The notes beneath the pieces were generated by a model. That model made no database searches, was not told the origin of the DNA, and saw only the letters and a list, made by a program, of their open reading frames with translations. Below, piece by piece: positions 1,237 through 43,407 of a stretch of 45,771 bases of DNA. The position numbers and the translations under genes are program-made. The first letter of the stretch is position 1, and the number at the start of each line of letters is the position of its first letter. This stretch comes from Streptosporangiales bacterium. Lineage in GTDB: Bacteria > Actinomycetota > Actinomycetes > Streptosporangiales > WHST01. The stretch lies in assembly GCA_009379955.1 (NCBI GenBank), contig WHST01000042.1, forward strand, positions 1 through 45,771, read 5' to 3'.

Positions 1237-1865
1237 CGTCGGCCCACCTCGCTCGTGCCCACTGGGCCATATGGTTCGATCCCGACGGTCTCCTGCGGCG
1301 GGCCCGCCCTGGCGAGTCGCCTCGCGGCGGCACGGTCGCGCGGCGAGGGCCCGGGGAGCAACGCACATAACGCCTCGAGCACCGTCTCGTACGGGGAAGC
1401 CTCGTCGTGCAGCGCCAGCCTGAGCAGCTCGAGACCGGCTCTGTGCTCCTGCACGAGCGCCAACCCGTCGACCAGGTCACCCATCGCCGCGTACTCCAAC
1501 GCGACAGGAAGGTAGTCCGGGAGCTCCGCCGGGCCGAGCTCCAAACCGCCGCGACGATAACGTTCCTTGAGCCGCGCCAGTGACTGGCCGCGACGTCGGG
1601 TCTCACCGTCGACCCACCAGGTGAGGTAGAGACAGCACTTTCTACGGCGGTCGAAGGTGGCGACGTAGTGCTCGGCCAGGGCTCTGGGTGCGGTCTGAGC
1701 GAACTGACCGAGGAACCTCTCCAGCGCCTGCCGGGACGCGGATGCCGGCAACGCAGACACTGCCGCAGCGACGAGCGGGATCCGGCCCCGCACCGTCTCG
1801 TCGGGGTACTGCAACAGGATCGAGACCGCCTGGCACACGACCGCGGCGTCAACGGGTGCGGTCAT
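1233..1865 (-). CDS. narJ: Nitrate reductase molybdenum cofactor assembly chaperone
   Basis: This 210-residue all-helical chaperone of the TorD/NarJ family binds apo-NarG until the molybdenum cofactor and FS0 cluster are in place. It is not part of the final complex. Recognisable blocks are LLQYPDE near the N-terminus, LAEHYVATFDRRRKCCLYLTWW (residues about 64-84) with the family's YVxTFDxxRxxxLYLT signature, and LPDYLPVALEYAA (about 116-128). It overlaps the end of narH by 17 bp and the start of narI by 4 bp, so translation is probably coupled. The C-terminal tail after residue 180 is Arg/Pro rich and poorly conserved, which is normal. Confidence 0.96.
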   Translation of the reverse strand: MTAPVDAAVVCQAVSILLQYPDETVRGRIPLVAAAVSALPASASRQALERFLGQFAQTAPRALAEHYVATFDRRRKCCLYLTWWVDGETRRRGQSLARLKERYRRGGLELGPAELPDYLPVALEYAAMGDLVDGLALVQEHRAGLELLRLALHDEASPYETVLEALCALLPGPSPRDRAAARRLARAGPPQETVGIEPYGPVGTSEVGRR

Positions 1866-3546
1866 CGCCGGTCGCTCGCCTTCCAGGCGCGTCGTGGGGA
1901 GGAGGGAACAGGCCTTCTGGTGCGCCTTTCCCGTCCCAGTTGAGCAGGTTGATCCGCGCGCCTGGGCGCTCCGGGTCGACGATCCCGCCGGTGCTCTGGC
2001 GCTGCTTCAGCGCGTGGAACGTCTCGACGGACACCGGCACCGGTTTGCCCGATGCCTCGCCGAAAGGTCCGCTGCCGTACATGCCGGGTCCTTCGTCGTA
2101 GTCGAGACTGCACCCGGTCTCCTCGAGGTGGCTCGCATCGCCCTCGTACGCCGTCGGTATGACGTAACGGTCCTCGTACTTCGCGATGGCGAGCAGCCGG
2201 TAGAGGGCAGTCAGCTCACCACCCGTCACTCCTACGGCCGCAGCCACCGATTCGTCCGGGGCGTCGCCGAGGTTGACTGCCCGCATGTAGCTCCGCATCG
2301 CGGCGAGCCGCTGCAGCACTTTCCTCACTGGTTTCGGGTCGCCTGCGGTGAACAGCTCCGCCAGGTACTCGACCGGTATCCGCAGTGAGTCGATCGCGCC
2401 GAAGAGGTTGTCGGCATCCTCACCGTCGTGTCCGGTGCCGGACAGCGCGTCGACGACGGGCGACAGCGGCGGGACGTACCAGACCATCGGCATGGTGCGG
2501 AACTCAGGGTGCAGGGGAAGCGCCACCCGATGCTGCTTGGCCAGCGCGTAGACGGGCGACCGGCGGGCCGCGTCGAGCCAGTCGTCGGGAATGCCGTCCC
2601 GTCGCGCTGCGGCGACGACATCGGGATCCGACGGGTCGAGCAGAACGTCCAGCTGCGCCTCGTACAGGTCCTTCTCGTCCTCCACCGCGGCCGCCTCGCC
2701 GACGCGATCACGGTCGTAGAGGAACAGCCCGACATAACGGAGCCGTCCGACACATGTCTCGGAGCACACGGTTGGTAGGCCGACCTCGACACGCGGATAG
2801 CAGAAGTGGCACTTCTCGGCCTTGCCGGTGCGGTGGTTGAAGTAGACCTTCTTGTACGGGCACCCCGTCACGCACATCCGCCAACCGCGACATCGATCCT
2901 GGTCGACAAGCACGATGCCGTCCTCGGCCCGTTTGTACATCGCACCCGATGGACAGGAGGCGACACAGGACGGGTTCAGGCAGTGCTCGCAGATCCGTGG
3001 CAGGTAGAACATGAAGGCCTGCTCGTACTCGGCCGTCACTTTGCCTTCTGCTTCTCGTCGCATCCGTTCGACGATCGGGTCGTTGTCGACGGCTTCAGCG
3101 CCACCGCCGAGGTCGTCATCCCAGTTCGCGCTCCATTCCACCCGCATCGGCTCTCCGGTGAGCAACGACTTCGGCTCCGCGACGGGGAAGTCGTCGCCGA
3201 GTGGCGCGGAGGTGAGGTTCTCGTAGTCGTAGGTCCAGGGCTCGTAGTAGTCGCGGATGTTCGGCATCACCGGATTGGCGAAGATGGACATTAGCTTGCG
3301 CAGCCGCCCGCCGGCCTTGAGCTTCAGCCGTCCTCGCTTGGTCCGGACCCAGCCACCGCGCCACCGCTCCTGGTCCTGGTAGCGACGCGGGTAGCCTTGT
3401 CCGGGTCGTGTCTCCACATTGTTGAACCAGACGTACTCCGTGCCACTGCGGTTGGTCCACGCCTGCTTGCAGGTGACCGAGCAGGTGTGGCAACCGATGC
3501 ACTTGTCGAGGTTCATCACCATGCCGAGCTGCGCCATCACGTACAT
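1849..3546 (-). CDS. narH: Respiratory nitrate reductase beta subunit (iron-sulfur)
   Basis: This 565-residue electron-transfer subunit carries three [4Fe-4S] and one [3Fe-4S] cluster and links NarI to NarG on the cytoplasmic side. The first cluster motif is CIGCHTCSVTC at residues 16-26. CEHCLNPSCVASCPSG and CRGWRMCVTGCPYKK follow; the Trp in CRGW replaces a Cys and marks the [3Fe-4S] site, as in other NarH proteins. The start MYVMAQLGMVMNLDKC is chosen because it matches the family N-terminus and overlaps the narG stop as TGATG. A 140-codon upstream extension of the frame is only a shadow of narG. A decayed fragment of a second narH lies at 43053-43280. Confidence 0.97.
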   Translation of the reverse strand: MYVMAQLGMVMNLDKCIGCHTCSVTCKQAWTNRSGTEYVWFNNVETRPGQGYPRRYQDQERWRGGWVRTKRGRLKLKAGGRLRKLMSIFANPVMPNIRDYYEPWTYDYENLTSAPLGDDFPVAEPKSLLTGEPMRVEWSANWDDDLGGGAEAVDNDPIVERMRREAEGKVTAEYEQAFMFYLPRICEHCLNPSCVASCPSGAMYKRAEDGIVLVDQDRCRGWRMCVTGCPYKKVYFNHRTGKAEKCHFCYPRVEVGLPTVCSETCVGRLRYVGLFLYDRDRVGEAAAVEDEKDLYEAQLDVLLDPSDPDVVAAARRDGIPDDWLDAARRSPVYALAKQHRVALPLHPEFRTMPMVWYVPPLSPVVDALSGTGHDGEDADNLFGAIDSLRIPVEYLAELFTAGDPKPVRKVLQRLAAMRSYMRAVNLGDAPDESVAAAVGVTGGELTALYRLLAIAKYEDRYVIPTAYEGDASHLEETGCSLDYDEGPGMYGSGPFGEASGKPVPVSVETFHALKQRQSTGGIVDPERPGARINLLNWDGKGAPEGLFPPPHDAPGRRATGDDRTR

Positions 3547-6500
3547 CAGTACGTCACATCCTGACTGCGGCGCCGGATCACCGTGACCTCGTCGCGCTGG
3601 TTGCCCGTCGGACCGAGGTAGTTGAACGCGAACGACAGCTGGCCATACCCACCGATGAGGTGGGTCGGCTTGATGAGCACGCGAGTGAGTGAGTTGTGGA
3701 TGCCACCGCGGCGACCGCTGGCTTCGGCGATCGGGACGTCGACGACGCGTTCCTGCGCGTGGTAGACGAAGACCGTTCCCGTGGGCATGCGGTGCGAGAC
3801 GATCGCGCGCAACACCATCACCCCGTTGCGGTTCACCGCCTCGACCCAGTCGTTGTCGACGACACCGATGACTCCAGCGTCGTCCGGGCTCATCCAGACC
3901 GTCGGCCCTCCGCGGGACAGGGTCAGCATGATCAGGTTGTCCTGGTACTCGGAGTGGATCGACCACTTCGAGTGCGGTGTCAGATAGCGCACGACGACCT
4001 GCTTCGACCCGTCCGGCCCCAGCGCCGGCTCACCGAAGAGCCGGTGCATGTCGAGGGGCGGTCGGTAGACGGGCAGCGCCTCGCCGAACTCGTGCATCCA
4101 GTCATGGTCGAGGAAGAAGTGCATGCGTCCGGTGAGCGTATGCCAGGGTTTCAGCTCCTCGACGTTGGTCGTGAAGGCCGCGTAACGCCGTCCGCCGGTC
4201 TCACTGCCAGACCATTCCGGGCTGGTGATCACCGGTACGGGGCCCGCTTGGGTGTCGGCGAACGTGATCCGCTTCTCCTCGCTGCCCTCGGCGAGGTGCG
4301 CGAGCGAGCGGCCGACCCGCCCTTCGGCGCCACGGAACCCCTGGACCGCCAGCCGGCCGTTCGTCGTGCCCGACAGGGTGAGAATCGCCTCCGCCATCTT
4401 GGCGTCTGTATCCAGCGCCGGCCTGCCTTCACCGACACCACCGAGCATCACCCCGTTGCCTCTCGCCAGCTTCTCGACCTCCTCGTCCGGGTGGAAGGTC
4501 ACGCCTTTCGTGGTGAGCCCGAGTCGCTCGGTGAGCGGGCCGAGCGAGACGAGCTTGTCGGCGACCGCACCGTAGTCGCGCTCCACGAGCGTGTACGCCG
4601 GCATCGTCCGGCCCGGGACTGGGTCGACGTCGCCGGCGCGCCAGTCGCGCACGACTCCTCCGGCCTGCGCGGTCTCGCCCGGAGTGTCGTGTTGGAGGGC
4701 TGTCGCGACGACGTCGCGTCGCACACCCAAGCGCTCGCGCGCCAGCTCACTGAACCGCCGCGCGATGGCCGTGAACGCGGCGAAGTCCGACCGTGTCTCC
4801 CACGGCGGGTCGATGGCCGGTGTGAACGCGTGAACGTACGGGTGCATGTCCGTCGAGGAGAGGTCGTGCTTCTCGTACCAGGTGGCTGCCGGCAGCACGA
4901 TGTCGGCGAGCAGCGTCGAGCTGGTCATCCGGAAGTCCAGTGCGAGCAGCAGGTCGAGCTTCCCCTCGGGAGGTTCCTCGCGCCACCGGACGTCTCGCGG
5001 GCGGCTCCCCGGCGGGGTCTCCTCTGCGCGCAGGCTCGAGTGTGTGCCGAGCAGGTGCTTCAGGAAGTACTCGTTGCCCTTGCCGGAGGAGCCGAGCAGG
5101 TTGGCTCGCCACAGCGTCAGACAGCGCGGCCAGTTCTCGGGTGCGTCAGGGTCCTCGCAGGCGAAGCCCAGCTCACCGGACGCGAGCTTGCCCGCGACGT
5201 AACCGGCCACATCCTCCCCCGCGGTCTCCGCCTCGTCCGCTACGTCCAGCGGGTTGCGGTCGAACTGTGGGTACGAGGGCATCCAGCCCAGCCGCGCGGA
5301 CAGCGCGATCGTGTCGGCGGTGTGCATACCGGAGAGTCCACCGTGTGCCAGTGGCGACGCGAGGGCGTCAGCGCGGTAGCCGTCGTAGCGCCACTGGTCG
5401 GCGTGGGTGTACCAGTACGCGGTGCCGATCATCTGGCGTGGCGGGCGCTGCCAGTCCGTCGCGCCGGCCACCGTCGCCCATCCCGTCACCGGGCGGCATT
5501 TCTCCTGGCCGACGTAATGGGCCCAACCGCCGCCGTTGCGACCCATCGCACCGGTGAGCAACAGCAGCGCCAGGATCGCGCGATAGGTCGCGTCACCGTG
5601 GAACCACTGGCAGATGCCCGCACCCATGATGATCATCGTGCGGCCGTCGGAGCGTTCGGAGCTCCGCGCCATCTCGCGAGCCACCCTGATGGCCGCGGCG
5701 GCAGGTACCGAGGTCAGCGGCTCCTGCCACGCCGGCGTGTACGGCTGCGACACGTCGTCGTATCCGGTCGGCCACGTCCCCGGCAGCCCCGGCCGCGACA
5801 CCCCGTACTGCGCGAGCATGAGGTCGAACACCGTCGTCACCAGCCGGCCACCGATCCGCCGCGCCGGGACCCCGCGCCGCAGCACGTGTTGCCCGTCGTC
5901 GAACGCCGGCAGCAACAGCTCCACCGAATCCGCATCCGGGCCGAACAGGGTCAGCTGCGGCGTCACGTCGCCGAGGTCGAGATTCCAGCGGCCGATGCCG
6001 CTCTCGGTCCACCTGTCACCGAGAGTCCCTGGAGGGACGACCGGCTCACCGGTGCGCCCATCGACCAGGACCGGCTTCCACTCGGCGCCCTCGCCCCTGT
6101 CACCGAGGTCGGCTGCGCGGAGGAACTTCCCAGGAACGTGTGCGGAGACGCCGTCGTGGTCGTGCTCCTCCAGCGTGACCAGGAACGGAAGATCGGTGTA
6201 ACGCTGGACATAGTCGACGAAGAACGGTACGCGCCGCTCGACGAAGCACTCCTTGAGGATCACGTGCCCCATCGCCATCGCCAGCGCACCGTCGGTGCCC
6301 GGTTGCGCGGGCAGCCACTGGTCGGCGAACTTGGTGTTGTCCGCGTAGTCGGGAGACACCACGACGACCTTCTGACCGCGATAGCGCGCCTCGGTCATCC
6401 AATGGGCGTCCGGCGTCCGCGTCACCGGAACATTCGACCCCCACATGAGCAGATAGGCGGCGTTCCACCAGTCACCGGACTCGGGTACGTCGGTCTGGTC

Positions 6501-7232
6501 GCCGAACACCTGTGGCGACGCGACGGGGAGATCGGCATACCAGTCGTAGAACGACGTCATGCAGCCGCCGACGAGCTCGATGAAGCGCGAGCCGACCGCA
6601 TGAGAGACCATCGACATGGCGGGGATCGGTGAGAACCCGGCGATGCGGTCGGGACCCCAGGTCGCGATCGTGTGTACGTGCGCAGCCGCGACCATCTCGA
6701 CGGCCTCGTCCCACGACACTCGGACGTGACCGCCCTTGCCGCGCGCCTCGTGGTACCGACGCCGGCGTTCCGGATCACCGACGACGTCGGCCCACGCCGC
6801 GACCGGATCCCCCAGCCGCGACCTCGCCTCGCGGTACATCTCGACGAGCACACCGCGCGCGTACGGGAACCGCACCCGCGTCGGCGAGTACGTGTACCAG
6901 GAGAACGCCGCACCACGTGGGCATCCGCGTGGCTCGTACTCGGGTGAGTCGGGCCCCACCGACGGATAGTCGGTCTGCTGACTCTCCCACGTGATGATCC
7001 CGTCCTTGACGTAGACCTTCCACGAGCACGACCCGGTGCAGTTGACCCCATGCGTCGACCGGACGACCTTGTCGTGACTCCAACGGTCCCGGTAGAAGAC
7101 GTCGCCGTCCCGCCCGCCCGCGCGCATGACCGCCCGGAGGTCAGGTGAGACTTCACGCCGGTTGAAGAAGCGCCCAGCGCGCATCAGCGCGTCGGCAGCT
7201 GATCCGTCGGTACTTCCCCGCGAGCTGGTCAC
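3546..7232 (-). CDS. narG: Respiratory nitrate reductase alpha subunit (molybdenum catalytic)
   Basis: This subunit reduces nitrate to nitrite at a bis-MGD molybdenum centre, taking electrons from NarH at the cytoplasmic membrane face. From the GTG at 7232 it is 1228 residues, the usual length. The FS0 cluster motif is His61, Cys65, Cys69 (HGVNCTGSC) and Cys104 (RGCPRG). The molybdenum ligand Asp is in SFYDWYADLP at about residue 230. I prefer GTG 7232 because GGGGG lies 7 bp upstream; a TTG at 7274 would add 14 residues but has poor spacing. narGHJI is a tight operon with a DosR-type box 103 bp upstream, shared with narK. Expression under oxygen limitation is inferred. Confidence 0.97.
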   Translation of the reverse strand: MTSSRGSTDGSAADALMRAGRFFNRREVSPDLRAVMRAGGRDGDVFYRDRWSHDKVVRSTHGVNCTGSCSWKVYVKDGIITWESQQTDYPSVGPDSPEYEPRGCPRGAAFSWYTYSPTRVRFPYARGVLVEMYREARSRLGDPVAAWADVVGDPERRRRYHEARGKGGHVRVSWDEAVEMVAAAHVHTIATWGPDRIAGFSPIPAMSMVSHAVGSRFIELVGGCMTSFYDWYADLPVASPQVFGDQTDVPESGDWWNAAYLLMWGSNVPVTRTPDAHWMTEARYRGQKVVVVSPDYADNTKFADQWLPAQPGTDGALAMAMGHVILKECFVERRVPFFVDYVQRYTDLPFLVTLEEHDHDGVSAHVPGKFLRAADLGDRGEGAEWKPVLVDGRTGEPVVPPGTLGDRWTESGIGRWNLDLGDVTPQLTLFGPDADSVELLLPAFDDGQHVLRRGVPARRIGGRLVTTVFDLMLAQYGVSRPGLPGTWPTGYDDVSQPYTPAWQEPLTSVPAAAAIRVAREMARSSERSDGRTMIIMGAGICQWFHGDATYRAILALLLLTGAMGRNGGGWAHYVGQEKCRPVTGWATVAGATDWQRPPRQMIGTAYWYTHADQWRYDGYRADALASPLAHGGLSGMHTADTIALSARLGWMPSYPQFDRNPLDVADEAETAGEDVAGYVAGKLASGELGFACEDPDAPENWPRCLTLWRANLLGSSGKGNEYFLKHLLGTHSSLRAEETPPGSRPRDVRWREEPPEGKLDLLLALDFRMTSSTLLADIVLPAATWYEKHDLSSTDMHPYVHAFTPAIDPPWETRSDFAAFTAIARRFSELARERLGVRRDVVATALQHDTPGETAQAGGVVRDWRAGDVDPVPGRTMPAYTLVERDYGAVADKLVSLGPLTERLGLTTKGVTFHPDEEVEKLARGNGVMLGGVGEGRPALDTDAKMAEAILTLSGTTNGRLAVQGFRGAEGRVGRSLAHLAEGSEEKRITFADTQAGPVPVITSPEWSGSETGGRRYAAFTTNVEELKPWHTLTGRMHFFLDHDWMHEFGEALPVYRPPLDMHRLFGEPALGPDGSKQVVVRYLTPHSKWSIHSEYQDNLIMLTLSRGGPTVWMSPDDAGVIGVVDNDWVEAVNRNGVMVLRAIVSHRMPTGTVFVYHAQERVVDVPIAEASGRRGGIHNSLTRVLIKPTHLIGGYGQLSFAFNYLGPTGNQRDEVTVIRRRSQDVTY

Positions 7233-7334
7233 GCGCGTACCCCCGACCAATGCATAGACGCCCTGGCCCGGCAATCCACCATCTCGCAGTCAGCCGGTTC
7301 GCACAAGATGCCTGCCGGCGCCCATCATGGTCAA

Positions 7335-23885: not shown

Positions 23886-23931
23886 TTAACCCTCGACGGG
23901 CGGCGCGCGTACCGTGGCCGGTGTGGAAAAG

Positions 23932-24585
23932 ATGATCACCGTCTTCCTGCTCGACGACCATGAAGTTGTCCGGCAGGGACTCCGTACCGTGCTCGAGCAC
24001 GAGCCCGACATCGAGGTCGTCGGAGAGGCGGAGAACGCGTCGCAGGCACTCGGCCGGGTCCCCGCCCTGCGTCCCGACATCGCGGTCCTCGATGTCCGCC
24101 TCCCGGACGGCGACGGCATCACCGTGTGCCGCGAGCTCCGCGACAGAGTGCCGGGCTTGGCCTGCATCATGCTGACGTCGTTCCCCGACGACGACGCGAT
24201 GATGCAGGCCGTCATGGCCGGTGCATCGGGCTACCTGCTGAAGGAGGTCAGGGGCTCGAAGATCGTCGACGCCGTCCGCGCTGTCGCGCAGGGGAACTCG
24301 CTGCTCGACCCCGTCGCCACCGCGCGGCTGCTCGACAAGCTCCGCGCCGACGCGCACCGCAAGGACCCGCTGGCAGCCCTCACCGCGCAGGAACGCGAGG
24401 TGCTCGCGCTCATCGGCGAAGGCCTCACCAACAGGCAGATCGGCGAACGGCTCTTCCTGGCGGAGAAGACCGTCAAGAACTACATCTCCAACGTCTTCAC
24501 CAAGCTCGGCATACAGCGACGCACCCAGGCCGCCATCTTGGCGACCAAGCTGCAGATGGATCAGGACGAGCACAGCAGAGAGTGA
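23932..24585 (+). CDS. devR: DosR/DevR-type response regulator (NarL/FixJ family)
   Basis: A 217-residue regulator, the same length as mycobacterial DosR and close to it throughout. The receiver begins MITVFLLDDHEVVRQGL, the phospho-acceptor is Asp54 (VLDVRLPDGDG), then LTSF and GASGYLLKEV. The LuxR-type HTH is at about 145-210 (LTAQEREVLALIGEGLTNRQI, recognition helix LAEKTVKNYISNVFTKLG). It likely binds the GGGACC palindromes found across this window under hypoxia. The ATG at 23932 is preferred by family length; GTG codons at 23914 and 23923 are alternatives, and no start has a strong ribosome site. Its presumed kinase is at 27782, not adjacent. Confidence 0.93.
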   Translation: MITVFLLDDHEVVRQGLRTVLEHEPDIEVVGEAENASQALGRVPALRPDIAVLDVRLPDGDGITVCRELRDRVPGLACIMLTSFPDDDAMMQAVMAGASGYLLKEVRGSKIVDAVRAVAQGNSLLDPVATARLLDKLRADAHRKDPLAALTAQEREVLALIGEGLTNRQIGERLFLAEKTVKNYISNVFTKLGIQRRTQAAILATKLQMDQDEHSRE

Positions 24586-24664: not shown

Positions 24665-27250
24665 ATGGCGACGAACGTGTCGGACATCCCGACGACCGAC
24701 CTCACCCAGGGGCTTACTCAACAGCAGGCTGCCGCAAGGCTGCACGAGTACGGACCCAACGCCGTCCCCGAGCCTCGGCCGCCCCACCTCGGCAGGCGTA
24801 TCGTCGCCCAGCTACGTGATCCACTCGTTATGGTCCTCCTGGCCGCGGTGGTCGTGACCGTGGCACTTCGCGACTACTCCGACGCGATCGTGATCATCCT
24901 GGTAGTCGTCCTCAACACCACCGTCGGTCTCGTCCAGGAGGTGCGTGCCGACCATGCCGTCGCCGCACTTCGCCGGCTCACCGCGCCGACCGCGCAGGTG
25001 ATGCGTGACGGTCGTCGCTCGACGGTGGATGTCGGGACACTCGTTCCGGGTGACGTGGTACTCCTCGCAGCCGGTGACATCGTCCCGGCGGACGTGCGAC
25101 TTGTCGAGGTCGCGTCCCTGCGGGTGGACGAGGCGGCATTGACCGGCGAGAGCATGCCGGTGGACAAGTACCTATCCGACGGTGACCAGGGTGAGGTCCT
25201 CGCCGGAACGGTGGTGACCGGGGGTCGTGGGCGAGGCGTCGTTACGAGGACGGGCCTCGACAGCGCTCTGGGCAAGATCGTCGCACTGGTCGCCGGGCAA
25301 CCGCGACAAGCCACTCCCCTGCAGCGACGCCTCGCCGGACTCGGCCGGACGCTGGGAGTAGCGGCGGTGGCACTCTCCGGACTCGTGCTGGTCGCCGGCC
25401 TGGTACGCGGACTCCCGTTGGCCGACATGATCCTCACCGCTGTCAGCCTGGTCGTCGCGGCCGTGCCCGAGTCTCTGCCCGCCGTCGTGACCGTGACCCT
25501 CGCCCTCGGTGCACACCGGATGGCACGCCGGGCTGCCATCGTCCGACGCCTTCCAGCGGTCGAGACGCTCGGTTCCGTAACCGTCATCGCGGCGGACAAG
25601 ACCGGCACCCTGACCGAGGGCTCCATGCGATGCGAGCTGGTCGCCGCGGGTGATGACCTCGTCGACGTGACGTCCACGCACCGTGCGCTCCGTGCCAGCG
25701 AGGCGGTACGTGCCGTGGCGCGTGACTTCGCCCTGTGCAACGACGCCTCCTGGTCCGGCCAGGACGGGGCATCGTCCACGGACGACCCGGTCGAGGTGGC
25801 GCTGGTCGCAGCCGCTCAGGACCTCGGCGTAGGTCCGGACGTGCGAGAGCGGCACCCACGGGTGCTCGAGATCCCCTTCGACGCCGACCGGCGACGAATG
25901 ACCACGGTCCACCGCGCCCCTGACGGTTCCTATCTCGCCATGAGCAAGGGCGCTCCCGAAGTTCTGCTCGCTGACGAGACCGCCAGCCCGTCGTTGACCC
26001 GGACGGCCGAACGACTCACCCGCGCCGGATACCGGGTTCTCGCCATCGCAGAGGCACGGTGGGAGACCCGGCCTCCGGACGACGAGTTGGAGACCGGGCT
26101 GACGCCCGTGGGCCTGGTCGCGCTGACCGATCCGGTGCGCACAACCGCTCCGGAGGTCGTGCGCCGCTTTCGGCGCGCCGGCATCCGGATGGTGCTGATC
26201 ACCGGTGACCACCCGGCCACCGCCGCAGCCGTCGCAGAACGCGTAGGCTTCGCGCGTCCGGCGGAGATCGCGACCGGTGCAGACCTCGCCGCCGGCACCG
26301 TGCGCGCAGAGGATGTCACCGTGTTCGCGCGCACGCGCCCCGAGCAGAAGATGGACATCGTCCATGCGTTGAAGCGACATGGCGAGGTCGTGGCCATGAC
26401 CGGCGACGGGGTGAACGACGCGCCCGCCCTGCGCGCCGCGAACATCGGCGTCGCAATGGGCCGCGGAGGCACAGAGGTCGCCCGGCAGTCCGCTGACCTG
26501 GTGCTCGCCGACGACGAGCTCGCCACCGTCGGTGTCGCGATCGAGGAAGGGCGCCGGATCTACGCCAACATCCGTCGGTTCCTCGTGTACGCGATGTCCG
26601 GTGGCGCCGCGGAGATCCTGGTGATGCTCGTCGGCCCGTTCCTCGGCATGACCGTCCCGCTCCTGCCTGCGCAGATCCTCTGGGTCAACATGCTCACCCA
26701 CGGGCTCCCCGGCGTCGCCCTCGGGGCCGAGCCTGCCGAGCGTGGCCTCCTCGACGTCCCTCCGCAGCGTCCCGGCAAGGCCGTGCTCGACCGGCGCCTG
26801 GCCGGTCGTGTGATGGCGATCGCGGTCCTCATCACAGCTGCGTGCCTAGGCACGGCTGCCTGGGCAGCGTCGACGGGACGGCCGTGGCAGACGATGCTCT
26901 TCGTCGTCCTCGGAGTCGCCCAGCTCGGAGTCGCGCTGTCCGTCCGCGCACGCCCCGCGGCCGGCACGAGGAGGAACCGCTCGCTCTTGATCGCGGTCAC
27001 CTCCTCGTTCGTGCTGCAGCTGGCCGCCGTGACGATCGGACCGCTTCGCGACCTCCTCGGCACCGGTCCCCTCTCACCACGAGATTTCGGGATATGCCTG
27101 GCGGTGGCGGTCGTCCCGGGACTCGTGCTGGCGACGATCCGGGCACTCACCGCCGGAAGACCCCACCGGCGGGGCCCTACGCCCCTGCCGACCCGACACG
27201 CGACCGGACCACAGTGGGATCAGAGCGCACGGAAGAAGGGGCACTCATGA
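24665..27250 (+). CDS. Cation-transporting P-type ATPase (CtpF/P2A-like)
   Basis: An 861-residue pump. It has the N-terminal cation ATPase domain ([21 protein letters not shown]), actuator motif TGES ([14 protein letters not shown]), the M4 motif [16 protein letters not shown], phosphorylated Asp311 in DKTGTLTEG, hinge [15 protein letters not shown], and C-terminal helices. The VPESLP sequence and overall order match P2-type Ca2+/Na+ or K+-type pumps and mycobacterial CtpF, a DosR-regulon member. The ion is not certain. The stop overlaps the flavodoxin start (ATGA). A truncated C-terminal piece of another P-type ATPase lies at 45132. Confidence 0.92.
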
Positions 27251-27781: not shown

Positions 27782-29623
<1,842 letters not shown>

Positions 29624-39604: not shown

Positions 39605-39940
39605 TCACGCACCCCGGTCGAGGTCGATCACCTCGTCCACCTGATCGAGTCTCGCGAGGCGGTGCGTTTAGGAACAGGACGGTCCGTCCCTCGGTCACGG
39701 CGAGCGGTCGTCGGTGATTGCGGTGGCGGTCGGTTCTTCCAGGTGCTCAGTGGGCTCGTCCGGGACGAGTACGGGGAAGTCGGCGAGGAGTGCGCGGGCG
39801 AGGTTGAGTCGTTGCCGTTCACCGCCTGAGAGACGGGAGCCGTGCTCGCCGACGAACGTGTCCAGGCCCCGACGGCATGTGTACGACCACCGGCAGCAAC
39901 CGCGCGCGACGCAGCGCGTCGACGAGCTCGTCCTCGGTGG
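39605..39940 (-). pseudogene. Remnant of CydC-type ABC exporter, C-terminal ATPase part
   Basis: Read on the minus strand from 39940, the translation is [19 protein letters not shown]. After a frameshift comes [20 protein letters not shown] with the ABC signature, then [23 protein letters not shown] (Walker B, with Leu replaced by Pro). Two more shifts lead to [10 protein letters not shown] and ARLDQVDEVIDLDRGA with a natural stop at 39605-39607. This is the end of the thiol/heme exporter subunit CydC that supports cytochrome bd. At least three frame changes make it non-functional. Upstream it joins directly a phosphoketolase fragment. Confidence 0.78.
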
Positions 39941-40252
39941 CGCCCGACGTGTGGATACACCTCGCTGTACGTGCCCTCCAGCCCCGCGTTCGCCGCCGCA
40001 GGGCAACCATGACCCCGCCGCACCACGTAGATCATGTCCAGGTGCCGCGCCGCAATTCAGCCGGTTCAGAAGGCGTAACAGAAGTTGAGGGCCCGTACTC
40101 GAAAGACCGAGAAGCCGTGGCTTGACGTGCTCAGGACGCAACGGCTCGCGTAGCAACTGGTTGTCCAGCAGGTAGATCTGGCCCACCGAGAGGTAGCTCG
40201 CCGCCCGCCAGCACCCGTCGATCCTGCACACGTCCTCGCTGTCCAGCCCCAT
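39941..40252 (-). pseudogene. Remnant of phosphoketolase N-terminus
   Basis: From the ATG at 40252 the minus strand reads [20 protein letters not shown] and [17 protein letters not shown]. After a shift comes RALNFCYA, and after another [16 protein letters not shown] and [12 protein letters not shown]. These are consecutive N-terminal blocks of xylulose-5-phosphate/fructose-6-phosphate phosphoketolase. About 700 residues are missing and the sequence changes to CydC within one codon at about 39940. The fragment cannot make an enzyme. Confidence 0.78.
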
Positions 40253-40365: not shown

Positions 40366-40737
40366 TCACGGGGTCGCGTCGAGCGGCTGCCGGTCGCGTT
40401 CCTCGCAGAACTCGCGCACCGCAGCGTAAGCACGGGCACCGTACACCGTCGCGGGCCCGCCGTTCATCAGGAAGGTGACACCGATGGCCTCCGCCGCCTC
40501 CAGAGGGGTGGCGCCCGCCTGAACCGCCGCGTGCGCGTGCGCGGCGATGCACCCGTCGCACTCCTTGCTCACCGCGATCGCCAGCGCGATCAGTTCCTTC
40601 GTCCCGGTGTCGAGAACGCCGGCGGCCAGCGCCGCGTCGTGCAGCTCCCGGTACCCCCGATAGACATCGGGAATCGCACGCCTGAGCTCGCTCGTGTGTG
40701 GCCGAAGCTCGTCCCTCACCGCCATGCCGTATGCCAT
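40366..40737 (-). CDS. AhpD-like carboxymuconolactone decarboxylase family protein
   Basis: A 123-residue all-helical protein. The redox motif is Cys60-x-x-Cys63 with His67 (KECDGCIAAHAHAAVQAGAT), as in AhpD-type peroxidase partners. RRAIPDVYRGYRELHDAAL and KELIALAIAVS precede it, and EAIGVTFLMNGGPATVYGARAY follows. It could reduce a thiol or disulfide partner. ATG 40737 has GGAGAG six bases upstream; ATG 40755 overlaps the dsrE stop but lacks a good site. It is the last gene of the sulfur cassette. Confidence 0.9.
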   Translation of the reverse strand: MAYGMAVRDELRPHTSELRRAIPDVYRGYRELHDAALAAGVLDTGTKELIALAIAVSKECDGCIAAHAHAAVQAGATPLEAAEAIGVTFLMNGGPATVYGARAYAAVREFCEERDRQPLDATP

Positions 40738-40754
40738 GATCTGCTCTCCGATCA

Positions 40755-41213
40755 TCAGGTGAAGACGATCTGGCCGCCGTCGGCCAGGTCGTACAACTCG
40801 CCGACGGTGATGATGCCCTTGACGTGCTCGACGAAGTCGTCCTCGCCGTAACCGAACAGGTCGACCGACGCCTTGCATGCGTATAATCCGGCACCGGTAT
40901 CCGCGATCATCTCGACGAACTCCGGCACCGGCGGGATGTCGAGAGTGTCCATCTTCCGACCCAGGTAGCGGGTCATCAGCGCGGACACCCCCGGCACCGC
41001 GCCGGCCAACGTTGGCAGGTGGAGGCCAGGGTTCCCGACAGTCGCCAGCTTGATGCGCTGTTGTCGCCCGCGGTGAATGGCGTCCAGCCCGAAGAACGTG
41101 AAGAACAGGTTCGCGTCGATGCCCTCGGCGCGCGCCCCGTTCGCCATGATCAGGCCCGGGTAGACGCCGTCGAGCGAGCCCTTGGAGATGATGATGGATA
41201 TCTTGTCGATCAT
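40755..41213 (-). CDS. DsrE2-type sulfur-carrier family protein
   Basis: A 152-residue DsrE/DsrF-fold protein. The start ISIIISKGSLDGVYPGLIMAN, then LFFTFFGLDAIHRGR, LDIPPVPEFVEMI and GLYACKASVDLFG match DsrE2-like proteins. Cys113 in LYACKAS is the likely persulfide-carrying residue. These proteins pass sulfane sulfur between carriers in the cytoplasm. It lies between the tusE/dsrC-like and AhpD-like genes: 13 bp after the first, and overlapping or 17 bp ahead of the second depending on its start. No dsrAB, hdr or tusBCD genes are present in the window. Confidence 0.9.
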   Translation of the reverse strand: MIDKISIIISKGSLDGVYPGLIMANGARAEGIDANLFFTFFGLDAIHRGRQQRIKLATVGNPGLHLPTLAGAVPGVSALMTRYLGRKMDTLDIPPVPEFVEMIADTGAGLYACKASVDLFGYGEDDFVEHVKGIITVGELYDLADGGQIVFT

Positions 41214-41226
41214 CGTTTCGCCCTTG

Positions 41227-41544
41227 TCAGATGCAGCCGCGTGGCTTGGGGATGCCGGCGATCCGCGCGGCGAGCTTCGCCGGTCCCTTTGGGAAGAGCT
41301 GGTAGAGCTCCTTGATGGTCACGCCCGAGGACCGCGCAAGCGCGCGGACGTTCGGGCCGGTGCCGTTCTGCTCGTACTGGTAGCGCATGTGCTTGACGAC
41401 CTGCCAGTGCTGCTCGGTGAGCCTTTCGATGCCGTACTCGCGGGCCAGCTCGGAAGTCATCTCCTCGCGCCACTGCCCCGGTTCGGTGAAAAATCCCTCG
41501 TCGTTCACGGTCACCGCGGTTCCCGCGTACACCTTCTCGGGCAT
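41227..41544 (-). CDS. TusE/DsrC-family sulfur relay protein
   Basis: A 105-residue protein: VTVNDEGFFTEPGQWREEMTSELAREYGIERLTEQHW, then VVKHMRYQYEQNGTGPNVRALAR and a C-terminal LYQLFPKGPAKLAARIAGIPKPRGCI. The penultimate Cys104 is the conserved sulfur-carrying residue. The second Cys of true DsrC (in KACKIAG) is replaced (KLAARIAG), so it is TusE-like and cannot form the DsrC intramolecular trisulfide. It presumably accepts persulfide from the DsrE2-like protein or the SQR-like enzyme. GGAGGAAGC precedes the ATG. Only 9 bp separate it from the flavoprotein gene. Confidence 0.93.
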   Translation of the reverse strand: MPEKVYAGTAVTVNDEGFFTEPGQWREEMTSELAREYGIERLTEQHWQVVKHMRYQYEQNGTGPNVRALARSSGVTIKELYQLFPKGPAKLAARIAGIPKPRGCI

Positions 41545-41553
41545 GCTTCCTCC

Positions 41554-42810
41554 TCACTGCCGTGATGCGCCGGTCAGCGCATCGAAGTCCTTACCCGTCC
41601 GTGGCATCGCGGCCGTGATCCCCGGGATGGAACGGCCGGGCAGCAGCGCGCGCCAGTAGAACGACTGGAACATGAGCTTGCCGAGGTGGTTGAGCCTGGA
41701 CTCACGCAGCAGCGGCAGTCCCACCCGAGACGGGAAACGACCGGGCAACGGCTCTGTGTCGTAGTTGAAGTCGATGAGCATCGCCTTGCCGAAGCCGGTC
41801 TCGACGAAACAGTTGGTGTGCCCGTCGAAGCGGGATGCCAGCGGCTCGCCCGCGAGGTGTCGCACGACGTTGTCCACCAGCACCTCGCCCTCGAAGTGCG
41901 CGACAGAGCCGGCCTTGGACGTCGGGATCGCGGCGGCGTCGCCGATGACGAAGATGTCCGGCCGGACCTTCGACTGCAGCGTCGACTCGTCCGTTGGCAC
42001 GAAGTCGAGCTCGTCGCCCAGTCCCGGCGACCTACCGACGTACTCCTCGCCGCTGTGCACCGGGACGACGACGGCTAGGTCGAACTCGACCGTTCGCTCG
42101 TCGAACGAGACCAGCCGTCCTGCCTCGCCGTCGACCTGACCGGTATTGAACTCGGTCACCAGCTCGATGCCCTTCTCCTCCAGCAGGCCGGCAAGGGTGC
42201 GTGTCGCGACGGGCTTGGTGAACGCTCCGTCGAGTGGCGTGACGTAGGTGAGCCGGACCCTGTCGCGGATTCCGCGGTCACGCAAATACCAGTCAGCGAG
42301 GAAGCAGAACTCCAGCGGTGCCACCGGACACTTGATCGGCATGTCGACGACGTTCACGACGAGGTGCCCACCGTCGAACGTCGGTAGCGCGGAAGCCAGC
42401 GCAGTCGCACCGTCGAGGTCGTAGAACGTATGGACGGTCTCGTGCCATCCCGGACCGTGGAGACCCTCGGTTTCCTCTGGAACGAGCCGTGTCCCGCTGG
42501 CGATGACGAGCACGTCGTAGCCGAGCACCGTGCCGTCGAGCAGCTGCACGTGCCGGTCGTCGACGTCGACACGGTCGACCGCTCCGCACCGGTAGTCCAC
42601 GCCGTCGCGGAGCTGCTGTTGCCGCGGCCGGACGATCTTCTCCGGCACGGCGAGCCCGAAGGGAACCAACAGCAGGCCGGGCTGGTAGACGTGACGGTCG
42701 TCCCGGTCGACCACGGTGATCCTGGCGTCGTCGCCGAGCTTCCGGCGAAGCCGGTTGGCCACCGATGTGCCGCCGGTGCCCCCGCCAAGAATCACGATGC
42801 GCCGTTCCAT
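41554..42810 (-). CDS. Sulfide:quinone oxidoreductase-like FAD-dependent oxidoreductase
   Basis: A 418-residue two-dinucleotide-fold flavoprotein. The FAD motif is RIVILGGGTGGTSVANRLRR at the N-terminus, with acidic Asp35 in VVDRDD. LGYDVLVIASGTRLVPEE is the second FAD block and KVRPDIFVIGDAAAIPTSKAGSVAHFEG the third. Redox Cys candidates are Cys161 (MPIKCPVAPLEFCFLADW) and Cys169, plus a later one in HTNCFVETG. FNYDTEPLPGRFPSRVG is typical of SQR-like enzymes. With the sulfur carriers behind it, oxidation of sulfide or a persulfide with electrons to quinone is likely. First gene of the cassette; a DosR-like box ends 36 bp upstream. Confidence 0.88.
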   Translation of the reverse strand: MERRIVILGGGTGGTSVANRLRRKLGDDARITVVDRDDRHVYQPGLLLVPFGLAVPEKIVRPRQQQLRDGVDYRCGAVDRVDVDDRHVQLLDGTVLGYDVLVIASGTRLVPEETEGLHGPGWHETVHTFYDLDGATALASALPTFDGGHLVVNVVDMPIKCPVAPLEFCFLADWYLRDRGIRDRVRLTYVTPLDGAFTKPVATRTLAGLLEEKGIELVTEFNTGQVDGEAGRLVSFDERTVEFDLAVVVPVHSGEEYVGRSPGLGDELDFVPTDESTLQSKVRPDIFVIGDAAAIPTSKAGSVAHFEGEVLVDNVVRHLAGEPLASRFDGHTNCFVETGFGKAMLIDFNYDTEPLPGRFPSRVGLPLLRESRLNHLGKLMFQSFYWRALLPGRSIPGITAAMPRTGKDFDALTGASRQ

Positions 42811-42845
42811 ACTTTCAGTCTTCGGCGCGGGTCCGGCCCCACCCA

Positions 42846-42881
42846 GAGCCGATGGTCCCGCACGATCGGGGCGAACGGCGT
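42846..42881. promoter_or_regulatory. DosR-type box upstream of SQR-like cassette
   Basis: On the plus strand GAGCCG-AT-GGTCCC (42846-42859) has a perfect GGTCCC half; GGGGCG-AA-CGGCGT starts 22 bp further from the gene at 42868. The proximal core is 35 bp from the ATG at 42810. The site lies in sequence beyond the decayed lipoprotein fragment. Confidence 0.55.
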
Positions 42882-42947
42882 AACCTCGTGGGCGCGGTTC
42901 TCCGGTCGCCCACGTCCCCGCGAGGCACCGGGGCCGCCGAGTCTTGC

Positions 42948-43040
42948 GGGCCCGGAGAAGACGACGGCGATGCCGAGGATGAAGCCGAAGTCGTACCAGT
43001 TCCCGTTGTTGTGCACCTCATAGAGGCTCACATCGGAGGC
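42948..43040 (-). pseudogene. Remnant of the VHNNGNWYDFGF lipoprotein
   Basis: The minus strand reads SDVSLYEVHNNGNWYDFGF then ILGIAVVFSGP, nearly identical to the intact lipoprotein at 8714 from its SDVSIYEV onward. The signal peptide half is missing, and the frame is continuous with a narH fragment, not with its own start. It is a fused duplicate piece. Confidence 0.8.
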
Positions 43041-43052
43041 CGCCACCGGTGG

Positions 43053-43280
43053 ACCGGCGGCCTCGGCGACCGACTCGTCCGGCGGCTCGCCGAGGTTGAC
43101 TGCGCGCATGTACGCGCATGGTGGCGAGTTTCGCAGGACGCGGCGGACGGACTCGGGATCGCCGGCGGTGCACGGCTCGCCCAGGTACTCGACCGGGATG
43201 CGCACCGCGTCGACCCCGCCGAACAGGTTGTCCGCGTTCTCACCGTCGTGCCCTGTGTCGGTGAGCGCGTCGACGAGCGT
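43053..43280 (-). pseudogene. Remnant of a second narH
   Basis: The minus strand encodes TLVDALTDTGHDGENADNLF, GGVDAVRIPVEYLGEPCTAG and MRAVNLGEPPDESVAEAAG. This is one internal segment of NarH (the intact copy at 1849 has VDALSGTGHDGEDADNLF and MRAVNLGDAPDESVAAAVG). All Fe-S cysteines are lacking. After AAG it runs in frame into the lipoprotein remnant. Confidence 0.82.
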
Positions 43281-43293
43281 GTGGAGCAACTGG

Positions 43294-43407
43294 AGCATCG
43301 CCCTGGCCAGCCTGTGGATCCCTGCTGTCGTCAACCTCATCGGTGTGCGGCAGATGGCATGGTTCCAGAACCTCACCGTCGTGCTGACGTTCGCTCCTCT
43401 GTTGTTC
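43294..43407 (+). pseudogene. Remnant of an APC-family amino acid permease
   Basis: A 38-codon stretch reads SIALASLWIPAVVNLIGVRQ, then MAWFQNLTVVLTFAPLLF. This is typical of the helix 5-6 region of APC amino acid transporters (usually NLIGVR-xAxxQNxxTVLKFxPLLF). It stands alone, beginning 14 bp from the narH remnant and on the other strand. No start, no further helices. Confidence 0.65.

Follow-up and report, generated by a model that had tools for sequence, protein, structure and literature searches.

A conserved SQR-TusE-DsrE2 cassette in Actinomycetota with a predicted DosR-type box

Three adjacent genes on a 45,771-nt stretch of DNA (hereafter "the window"; contig WHST01000042.1 of assembly GCA_009379955.1, Streptosporangiales bacterium) encode a sulfide:quinone oxidoreductase (SQR), a TusE/DsrC-family sulfur carrier and a DsrE2-like sulfurtransferase. 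These three genes form a unit that is conserved in many soil actinobacteria, and an AhpD-like gene that follows them in the window is an optional addition. A predicted DosR-type box upstream of SQR is a conserved feature of the cassette, and both the box and the cassette are associated with the response regulator DevR (DosR), through which mycobacteria enter dormancy on running out of oxygen. The cassette is probably an operon under DevR control that disposes of toxic sulfide, carries the sulfur on proteins and delivers electrons to menaquinone. The protein families, gene order, cysteines, box conservation, DevR association and genome partners on which this proposal draws were all computed. 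An earlier note, made from the window sequence alone, had described the four genes as a compact, hypoxia-linked sulfur-relay pathway without a Dsr system; overall, that interpretation is partly supported.

A conserved three-gene unit

The four genes lie head to tail on the minus strand, from 42810 to 40366, with intergenic gaps of 9, 13 and 17 nt. The first (41554-42810) encodes a type III-like SQR of 418 amino acids, in the Cys form with C161 and C334. It is followed by the TusE/DsrC-family gene (41227-41544; 105 amino acids; PF04358, 109.5 bits), whose product has only the C-terminal Cys, C104, and by the DsrE2-like gene (40755-41213; 152 amino acids; PF13686, 97.7 bits), with C113. The optional fourth gene (40366-40737; 123 amino acids; PF02627 and TIGR00778) encodes an AhpD-like CMD-family protein with a CxxC motif; its start was taken as the ATG at 40737, which is preceded by GGAGAG, and the longest open reading frame (ORF) begins further upstream. 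Third-position GC is 0.86-0.90 across all four genes. Matches to Pfam and NCBIfam families (Pyr_redox_2 and NF049943, DsrC, DrsE_2, and the CMD/AhpD core), together with the coordinates, confirmed the earlier description of four close genes of these families.

Evidence that the first three genes belong together came from searching named genomes with TusE. This gave 157 relatives; the 80 best were retained, and weaker ones went unseen. SQR, TusE and DsrE2 occur in the same order and on the same strand in all 80 relatives kept, and the arrangement is thus not unique to this strain. Part of one gene is missing in five of the 80 loci (L034, L058, L082, L108 and L109), and two loci, L056 and L082, come from one genome. 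The four-gene order put forward in the earlier note was conserved as far as DsrE2; the AhpD-like gene has relatives near the core in only 3/80 loci (L049, L056 and L098, all upstream of SQR) and, in the downstream position, at L165. An apparent fusion of DsrE2 to a CoA-disulfide reductase (CoADR)-rhodanese protein at L058 was rejected as an artefact because the ORF crosses a stretch of N.

Additional evidence came from a phylum sample, an even draw of 396 genomes. A DsrC-family match was found in 50 of these genomes and an SQR over the NF049943 cut-off in 32. Seven of the 32 SQRs carry a TGA, all from one family (f26), and every one of the 25 TGA-free SQRs adjoins TusE by coordinates. The cassette was counted in 28 of the 396 genomes. 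All three genes were seen in 24 of them, including the genome of the window, a set in which G347 has only the C-terminus of SQR and G134 a damaged SQR; the other four (G001, G097, G329 and G386) were counted on SQR beside TusE by coordinates. Among three genomes of the same genus as the window, one of them 77% complete, a DsrC-family protein was found in one, so the cassette is patchy at this level.

In seven divergent cassettes (L162-L168), SQR and TusE lie further apart. In six of these (L162-L167) a co-oriented ORF of 185-268 amino acids fills the gap; none is listed for L168. The inserted ORF is a DUF1641 protein in three of the four cases tested, and DUF1641 may be an SQR accessory.

Identity of the flavoprotein

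Sequence and fold suggest that the window flavoprotein is an SQR rather than a persulfide reductase. It scores 559.8 bits against NF049943, over the curated cut-off of 525. Human SQR is its best PDB match by sequence, and C161 and C334 align with the human redox Cys pair. The structural model (pLDDT 91.7) also has human SQR as its best fold match (TM 0.85-0.86, rmsd 2.1-2.4), as compared with a TM of 0.62 for the persulfide reductases 6pfz and 3ict. Both cysteines are present in all 81 rows of an alignment that excluded matches below 45% identity and retained 81 of 92 rows after removal of short rows and those with internal stops; they are still invariant when the divergent cassettes are added, with SQR rows down to 53% identity. 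Transfer of electrons from sulfide to the quinone pool, which the earlier note had proposed for sulfide or persulfide, is supported as the likely first step.

NF049943 is listed as a selenoprotein family with the motif HxxU in the accessible part of PMC13188914. In agreement with this motif, the selenocysteine (Sec)-type SQRs of family f26 have TGA exactly at the C334 position in all five cases inspected (loci L150-L153 and L155, in genomes G137, G020, G094, G060 and G083). A natural Cys/Sec swap at this site is the behaviour expected of a redox-active residue. The window SQR has Cys334 and no in-frame TGA, and is not of the selenoprotein subtype; a selenoprotein reading was rejected since the family's Sec sits at the C334 site, which is Cys here. 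The stop codon of the window SQR is itself a TGA, with TusE following in frame (TGA-GGA-GGA-AGC-ATG); Sec readthrough was rejected here too, the GGAGGA being a ribosome site. At four Sec loci checked for DsrE2 (L169-L172), no match was found nearby. All three Sec-SQR genomes tested have dsrA over the cut-off, each with a second, weaker match beside dsrA.

Sulfur carriers and the AhpD-like protein

The window TusE passes the wider TusE/DsrC subfamily model (91.4 versus a cut-off of 53.5) and falls below the TusE equivalog model (67.2 versus 191). It has Ala93 at the second Cys position of DsrC structures and keeps C104, which sets it apart from two-Cys DsrC proteins. All 92 rows of the TusE alignment have both C104 and Ala at the second position, in a set from which matches below 38% identity, including true two-Cys DsrC proteins, were omitted beforehand. 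The DsrE2 protein matches Pfam DrsE_2 and scores 86.9 against the DsrE2 equivalog NF047629, whose cut-off is 210, so it is labelled DsrE2-like only. Its model (pLDDT 88.1) has the Sulfolobus DsrE/DsrF-like protein 2qs7 as best match. C113 is present in 88 of the 90 rows kept, from 92 before short and internal-stop rows were dropped, and its invariance holds when divergent cassettes are added (DsrE2 rows down to 38% identity). The two cysteines singled out in the earlier note, TusE Cys104 and DsrE2 Cys113, were therefore correctly named and are conserved.

The AhpD-like protein scores 50 bits against TIGR00778, for which the cut-off is 27.8, and carries C60-x-x-C63, as expected of an AhpD-core protein with a CxxC motif. 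Its gene was rejected as a core partner, since its occurrence near the cassette (3/80 loci versus 0/60 control regions, p = 0.26) does not differ significantly from background, and it is retained as optional.

A DosR-type box and its association with DevR

A predicted DosR/DevR-type box, GGGACCATCGGCTC, lies at 42846-42859 on the minus strand; its 5' end is 49 bp upstream of the SQR start codon. The window box is credible because similar sites are conserved upstream of SQR in relatives. A Mycobacterium tuberculosis core, used untuned, was found with up to three mismatches in 33 of 83 SQR upstream regions of 200 bp, versus 1.7 in shuffles, and in none of the regions upstream of TusE (0/92) or DsrE2 (0/91). 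The published 16-mer for OsdR (PMC5069765, seen in part), allowing up to four mismatches, was found in 17 of 84 regions, where 2.2 were expected, with its best sites concentrated at 50 and 51 bp; the 84-region sets hold the window site twice (WIN and L001), and the 83-region set holds it once. A 16-mer with incorrect spacing showed no excess in the upstream regions.

A tuned 14-mer was shaped on the site in the window and on those of a small number of loci, after these had been seen. With up to three mismatches to this pattern, a motif at −49 to −52 is present in 41/83 regions, with a consensus close to GGGACSWWSGGCCCT. This consensus is similar to GGGACTTNNGNCCCT, given as the stringent DosR consensus in the part of PMC6448022 that was available. 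Within the window, the tuned 14-mer has 10 sites, a small excess over the 4.6 sites averaged across 20 shuffles (range 1-9). A 20-mer has 36 sites in the window, a number within the shuffle range, and the window box is not among them. One tuned-pattern site lies exactly 50 bp upstream of the P-type ATPase gene at 24665. Of these tests, the untuned M. tuberculosis core and the OsdR 16-mer carry more weight, together with the DevR association described below; the tuned 14-mer counts for less.

The association with DevR has two parts. At the level of genomes, a DevR ortholog is present for 66 of 79 loci tested of the 80 (24/29 and 42/50 in two sets, with L111 left out of the test) and for eight of 11 further loci. 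In the phylum draw, where only the first seven candidates per genome were scored, DevR was found in 23 of the 28 cassette genomes versus 110 of the 368 others; the cassette genomes without it are G175, G186, G220, G294 and G347. The DevR cut-offs were E 1e-58 for the 29-locus set, 1e-54 for the phylum draw and 1e-50 for the 50-locus set. Co-occurrence of the cassette with devR, suggested as a check in the earlier note, is thus borne out.

At the level of the box, 75 of the 79 loci were usable, with L034, L065, L108 and L109 falling short of the SQR start or of upstream sequence. Allowing one mismatch to the tuned pattern, a box was found at 30 of 64 loci with DevR versus 0 of 11 without (p = 0.0024), and allowing two mismatches at 49/64 versus 2/11. 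The untuned M. tuberculosis core, with up to three mismatches, gave 31/64 versus 1/11 (p = 0.019). These data tie the box to DevR and support the hypoxia link proposed earlier. A previous 40-locus test of the same association, in which 17 loci had been picked mainly for the box, was rejected and is superseded by the 75-locus test.

Sulfur-related neighbours and genome partners

When flanking ORFs were clustered and scanned for families, CsoR-family, DUF302, CoADR-rhodanese, desulfurase-like, TauE, thioredoxin and MBL-rhodanese genes were identified among the neighbours of some cassettes. Enrichment was assessed by comparing the 80 loci with 60 control regions, spaced evenly over nine cassette-bearing genomes. 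CsoR-like repressors (16/80 versus 2/60), DUF302 (13/80 versus 1/60), thioredoxin (10/80 versus 0/60), PIG-L (8/80 versus 0/60) and desulfurase-like genes (7/80 versus 0/60) are enriched, with p-values that are optimistic because the families were picked for recurrence, the queries came from the same loci and the controls came from nine other genomes. All 15 clustered repressors have two Cys 29 residues apart and Gly or Ser at the His position of copper CsoRs, a two-Cys, His-less pattern that we take to be that of the persulfide-sensing CstR. In one genome, G157, genes for a CsoR-like repressor, a rhodanese, a persulfide dioxygenase (PDO)-like protein, DUF302, SQR, TusE and DsrE2 follow one another in that sequence on one strand. 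The genome of the window has a separate cluster of CsoR-like, PDO-like, rhodanese and TauE-like genes (L248, contig C109, 5071-8625), which is likely to be the organism's persulfide-detoxification operon.

A PDO-like gene is present in 20 of the 28 cassette genomes, including that of the window, and TusA in 19. In a search for dsrA, none of the 28 has a match over the cut-off; 15 have weak matches below it. The genome of the window has two such weak dsrA matches and none over the cut-off, a single DsrC-family gene and, in a genome-wide search for TusA, no match. The earlier description of a cassette without a Dsr system agrees with these results as far as dsrA goes. The accompanying claim that known partners are absent holds for the 34 proteins of the window that were compared with Pfam and does not extend to the genome, which has a rhodanese and PDO-like genes elsewhere.

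Surroundings in the window

The window encodes a devR (dosR) response regulator (23914-24585, plus strand), for which M. tuberculosis DevR (3c3w, 258 bits) is the top match in the PDB, and a devS-like GAF-GAF histidine kinase (27782-29569, minus strand) with GAF and HisKA_3 domains, for which DevS GAF domains are among the top PDB matches. Both lie in a dense island of DevR-type genes (1849-39567) that includes nar genes, universal stress proteins, an alcohol dehydrogenase, a CBS-BON protein, Hsp20, GH65 with HAD, an acetyltransferase/CoA ligase, a P-type ATPase, WS/DGAT and a nitroreductase. Elsewhere in the same genome (G000, contig C25:7314-7952, minus strand) there is a gene for another DevR-like regulator, which shares 72% identity with the DevR of the window. 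In other genomes, pyruvate phosphate dikinase-like genes lie near the cassette at L033, L046 and L097, and a DosR-type site precedes that of L046.

Immediately upstream of SQR, an ORF at 42792-43376 (minus strand) contains only a nitrate reductase beta C-terminal domain (PF14711, 52.5 bits); fuller narH (1849-3966) and narG (3546-7274) genes are present in the window, and the upstream ORF is likely a remnant. At the other end of the gene run, immediately 3' of the AhpD-like gene, an ORF at 39695-40252 (minus strand) has ABC-type ATPase motifs and looks remnant-like by eye.

Proposed mechanism and alternatives

In a DevR-controlled sulfide-disposal operon, DevS would sense low oxygen or another gas. 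In low oxygen or under H2S, DevR would bind the box, which lies 49 bp from the start of SQR, and turn on SQR-TusE-DsrE2, along with the AhpD-like gene where it follows. SQR would take two electrons from sulfide via FAD and the C161/C334 pair and pass them to menaquinone. Sulfane sulfur would then be carried on TusE Cys104 and DsrE2 Cys113, either replacing small thiols or acting beside them. The sulfur sink would most likely be rhodanese and persulfide dioxygenase, where present, giving sulfite, perhaps with export by TauE; the candidate sink genes lie elsewhere in the genome of the window, and some relatives have them directly beside the cassette. An optional role as thiol reductase or peroxidase may fall to the AhpD-like protein. 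Its thiol pair had been cast as the standard exit step for sulfur, a role that does not fit a gene found near the core in so few relatives. A self-contained pathway is likewise unsupported, given the persulfide dioxygenase cluster in the organism's own genome and the run of such genes into the cassette in G157.

What SQR does as an enzyme, the role of the two carriers, the direction and sequence in which sulfur is passed on, its sink and the induction of the operon are inferences. Several observations weigh against the proposal of a DevR-controlled disposal operon. The box is conserved in relatives and weak in the window alone, where it has 4/16 mismatches to the published OsdR consensus. With the M. 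tuberculosis core, boxes were also found above shuffle levels upstream of other supported ORFs of the same loci (21/335), because other DevR-type genes lie nearby. Thirteen of the 79 loci are in genomes without a DevR ortholog, and among the 64 loci with DevR, 34 have no box at up to one mismatch and 15 have none at up to two; these counts, like those of DevR against the cassette, ignore genome relatedness. PDO is missing from eight of the 28 cassette genomes, so persulfide dioxygenase cannot be the universal sink. Finally, no significant enrichment near the cassette was seen for CoADR-rhodanese (8/80 versus 3/60), PDO (6 versus 2), TauE (4 versus 1) or AhpD (3 versus 0).

One alternative is that the cassette performs plain SQR detoxification, with sulfur passed to a small thiol (mycothiol or CoA) or to sulfite, while TusE and DsrE2 do something secondary, for instance in regulation or repair. 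Small acceptors are what known SQRs use, PDO-like genes are present in most cassette genomes, and CsoR-like and PDO genes lie near some cassettes. Against this stand the presence of TusE beside every one of the Cys-type SQRs over the cut-off in the phylum draw and of DsrE2 in all 80 loci; both carriers keep their single Cys, while small-thiol genes are optional neighbours. Plain detoxification is an unlikely account of the cassette. A redox-buffer role, in which the flavoprotein and the CxxC/AhpD protein curb protein persulfides or peroxides and the reaction runs toward sulfide, would suit the AhpD-like neighbour with its CxxC and the CoADR-rhodanese genes near eight of the 80 cassettes. Neither of these enrichments is significant, and by sequence and fold the flavoprotein is closer to SQR (TM 0.86 to human SQR) than to the persulfide reductases (0.62), which leaves such a role improbable.

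The earlier note had also raised sulfur delivery for tRNA or Fe-S repair in dormant cells, here with SQR-derived sulfur passing through TusE and DsrE2 to tRNA thiolation or Fe-S repair. E. coli TusE serves tRNA thiolation, desulfurase-like genes are among the neighbours enriched near the cassette, and TusA is present in about two-thirds of the cassette genomes (19/28). The option fits less well because the cassette is patchy within the genus, unlike a core tRNA function, because the genome of the window has no TusA, and because SQR is alongside in all 80 loci; moreover, the window TusE misses the TusE equivalog cut-off. Biosynthetic delivery therefore seems a poor candidate, about on a par with the redox-buffer role.

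More broadly, and tentatively, sulfide disposal could be an old arm of the DevR/DosR regulon in Actinomycetota, a regulon that responds to O2, NO, CO and reportedly H2S, with SQR as the sink and TusE-DsrE2 as the relay. A DevS-DevR-SQR feedback loop of this kind might remove an inducing gas and feed menaquinone in dormant cells, possibly with nitrate as acceptor, and most mycobacteria might have lost it. The idea would link bacterial sulfide oxidation with the DosR dormancy response, two fields that have mostly been kept apart, and would describe a three-gene system in which SQR sulfur may exit on proteins rather than small thiols. If true, SQR, DsrC and DsrE2 annotations in soil actinobacteria could point to low-oxygen stress rather than sulfur lithotrophy.

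Comparison with known systems

Support for a connection between H2S and the Dos response comes from a study of M. tuberculosis (PMC6987094, seen in part), which reports that H2S upregulated 31 of the 48 genes of the Dos regulon and that key genes were induced less strongly in dosS/dosT mutants. This induction would give a DevS-DevR-SQR circuit a purpose, and an SQR operon with a Dos-type box would offer a concrete reason for it. In the available portion of the same paper, a mutant of the putative SQR Rv0331 had wild-type-like respiration under H2S, and no sulfide-removing Dos regulon member is named. No SQR was found in the accessible parts of three papers on DosR/OsdR-type regulons (PMC5069765, PMC10034137 and PMC10703047), and sulfur terms returned no matching passage in that of PMC10034137. 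The OsdR table of PMC5069765 includes a CoA disulfide reductase, and the excerpt of PMC10703047 names "sulfur relay system" among the pathways changed on dosR deletion in BCG. Among the matches listed in open-access PMC literature, there was none for an SQR-TusE-DsrE2 unit with a DosR-type box.

The surroundings of the cassette resemble the DosR regulon of M. tuberculosis and the OsdR regulon of Streptomyces coelicolor, with DevR and DevS relatives, a box that matches the OsdR 16-mer in register (PMC5069765, as far as seen), and universal stress proteins, a nitroreductase, Hsp20, a P-type ATPase, WS/DGAT and nar genes in the island. The flavoprotein itself resembles the type III SQRs of NF049943: it scores over the family cut-off and has the same two redox positions, with Sec at the C334 site in relatives. 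It differs from the Sec forms in that the window member has Cys and sits in an SQR-TusE-DsrE2 run, whereas the Sec forms occur with dsrA (3/3 tested).

CstR-controlled sulfide/persulfide detoxification operons contain cstR, rhodanese, PDO, TauE and SQR. The same gene types lie near some cassettes and form a separate cluster in the genome of the window; the difference is that TusE and DsrE2 are fixed partners in the cassette, with a DosR-type box before SQR in many cases. The DsrEFH/DsrC and rhodanese-TusA-DsrE2 relays belong to sulfur oxidisers. The cassette shares with them DsrC/TusE-type and DsrE-type carriers with conserved Cys, and differs in its lack of dsrA over the cut-off (28/28 genomes), its single-Cys TusE and its direct link to SQR. 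The single families are known, and the cassette is a sulfide-oxidation variant with an unexpected regulator rather than new chemistry.

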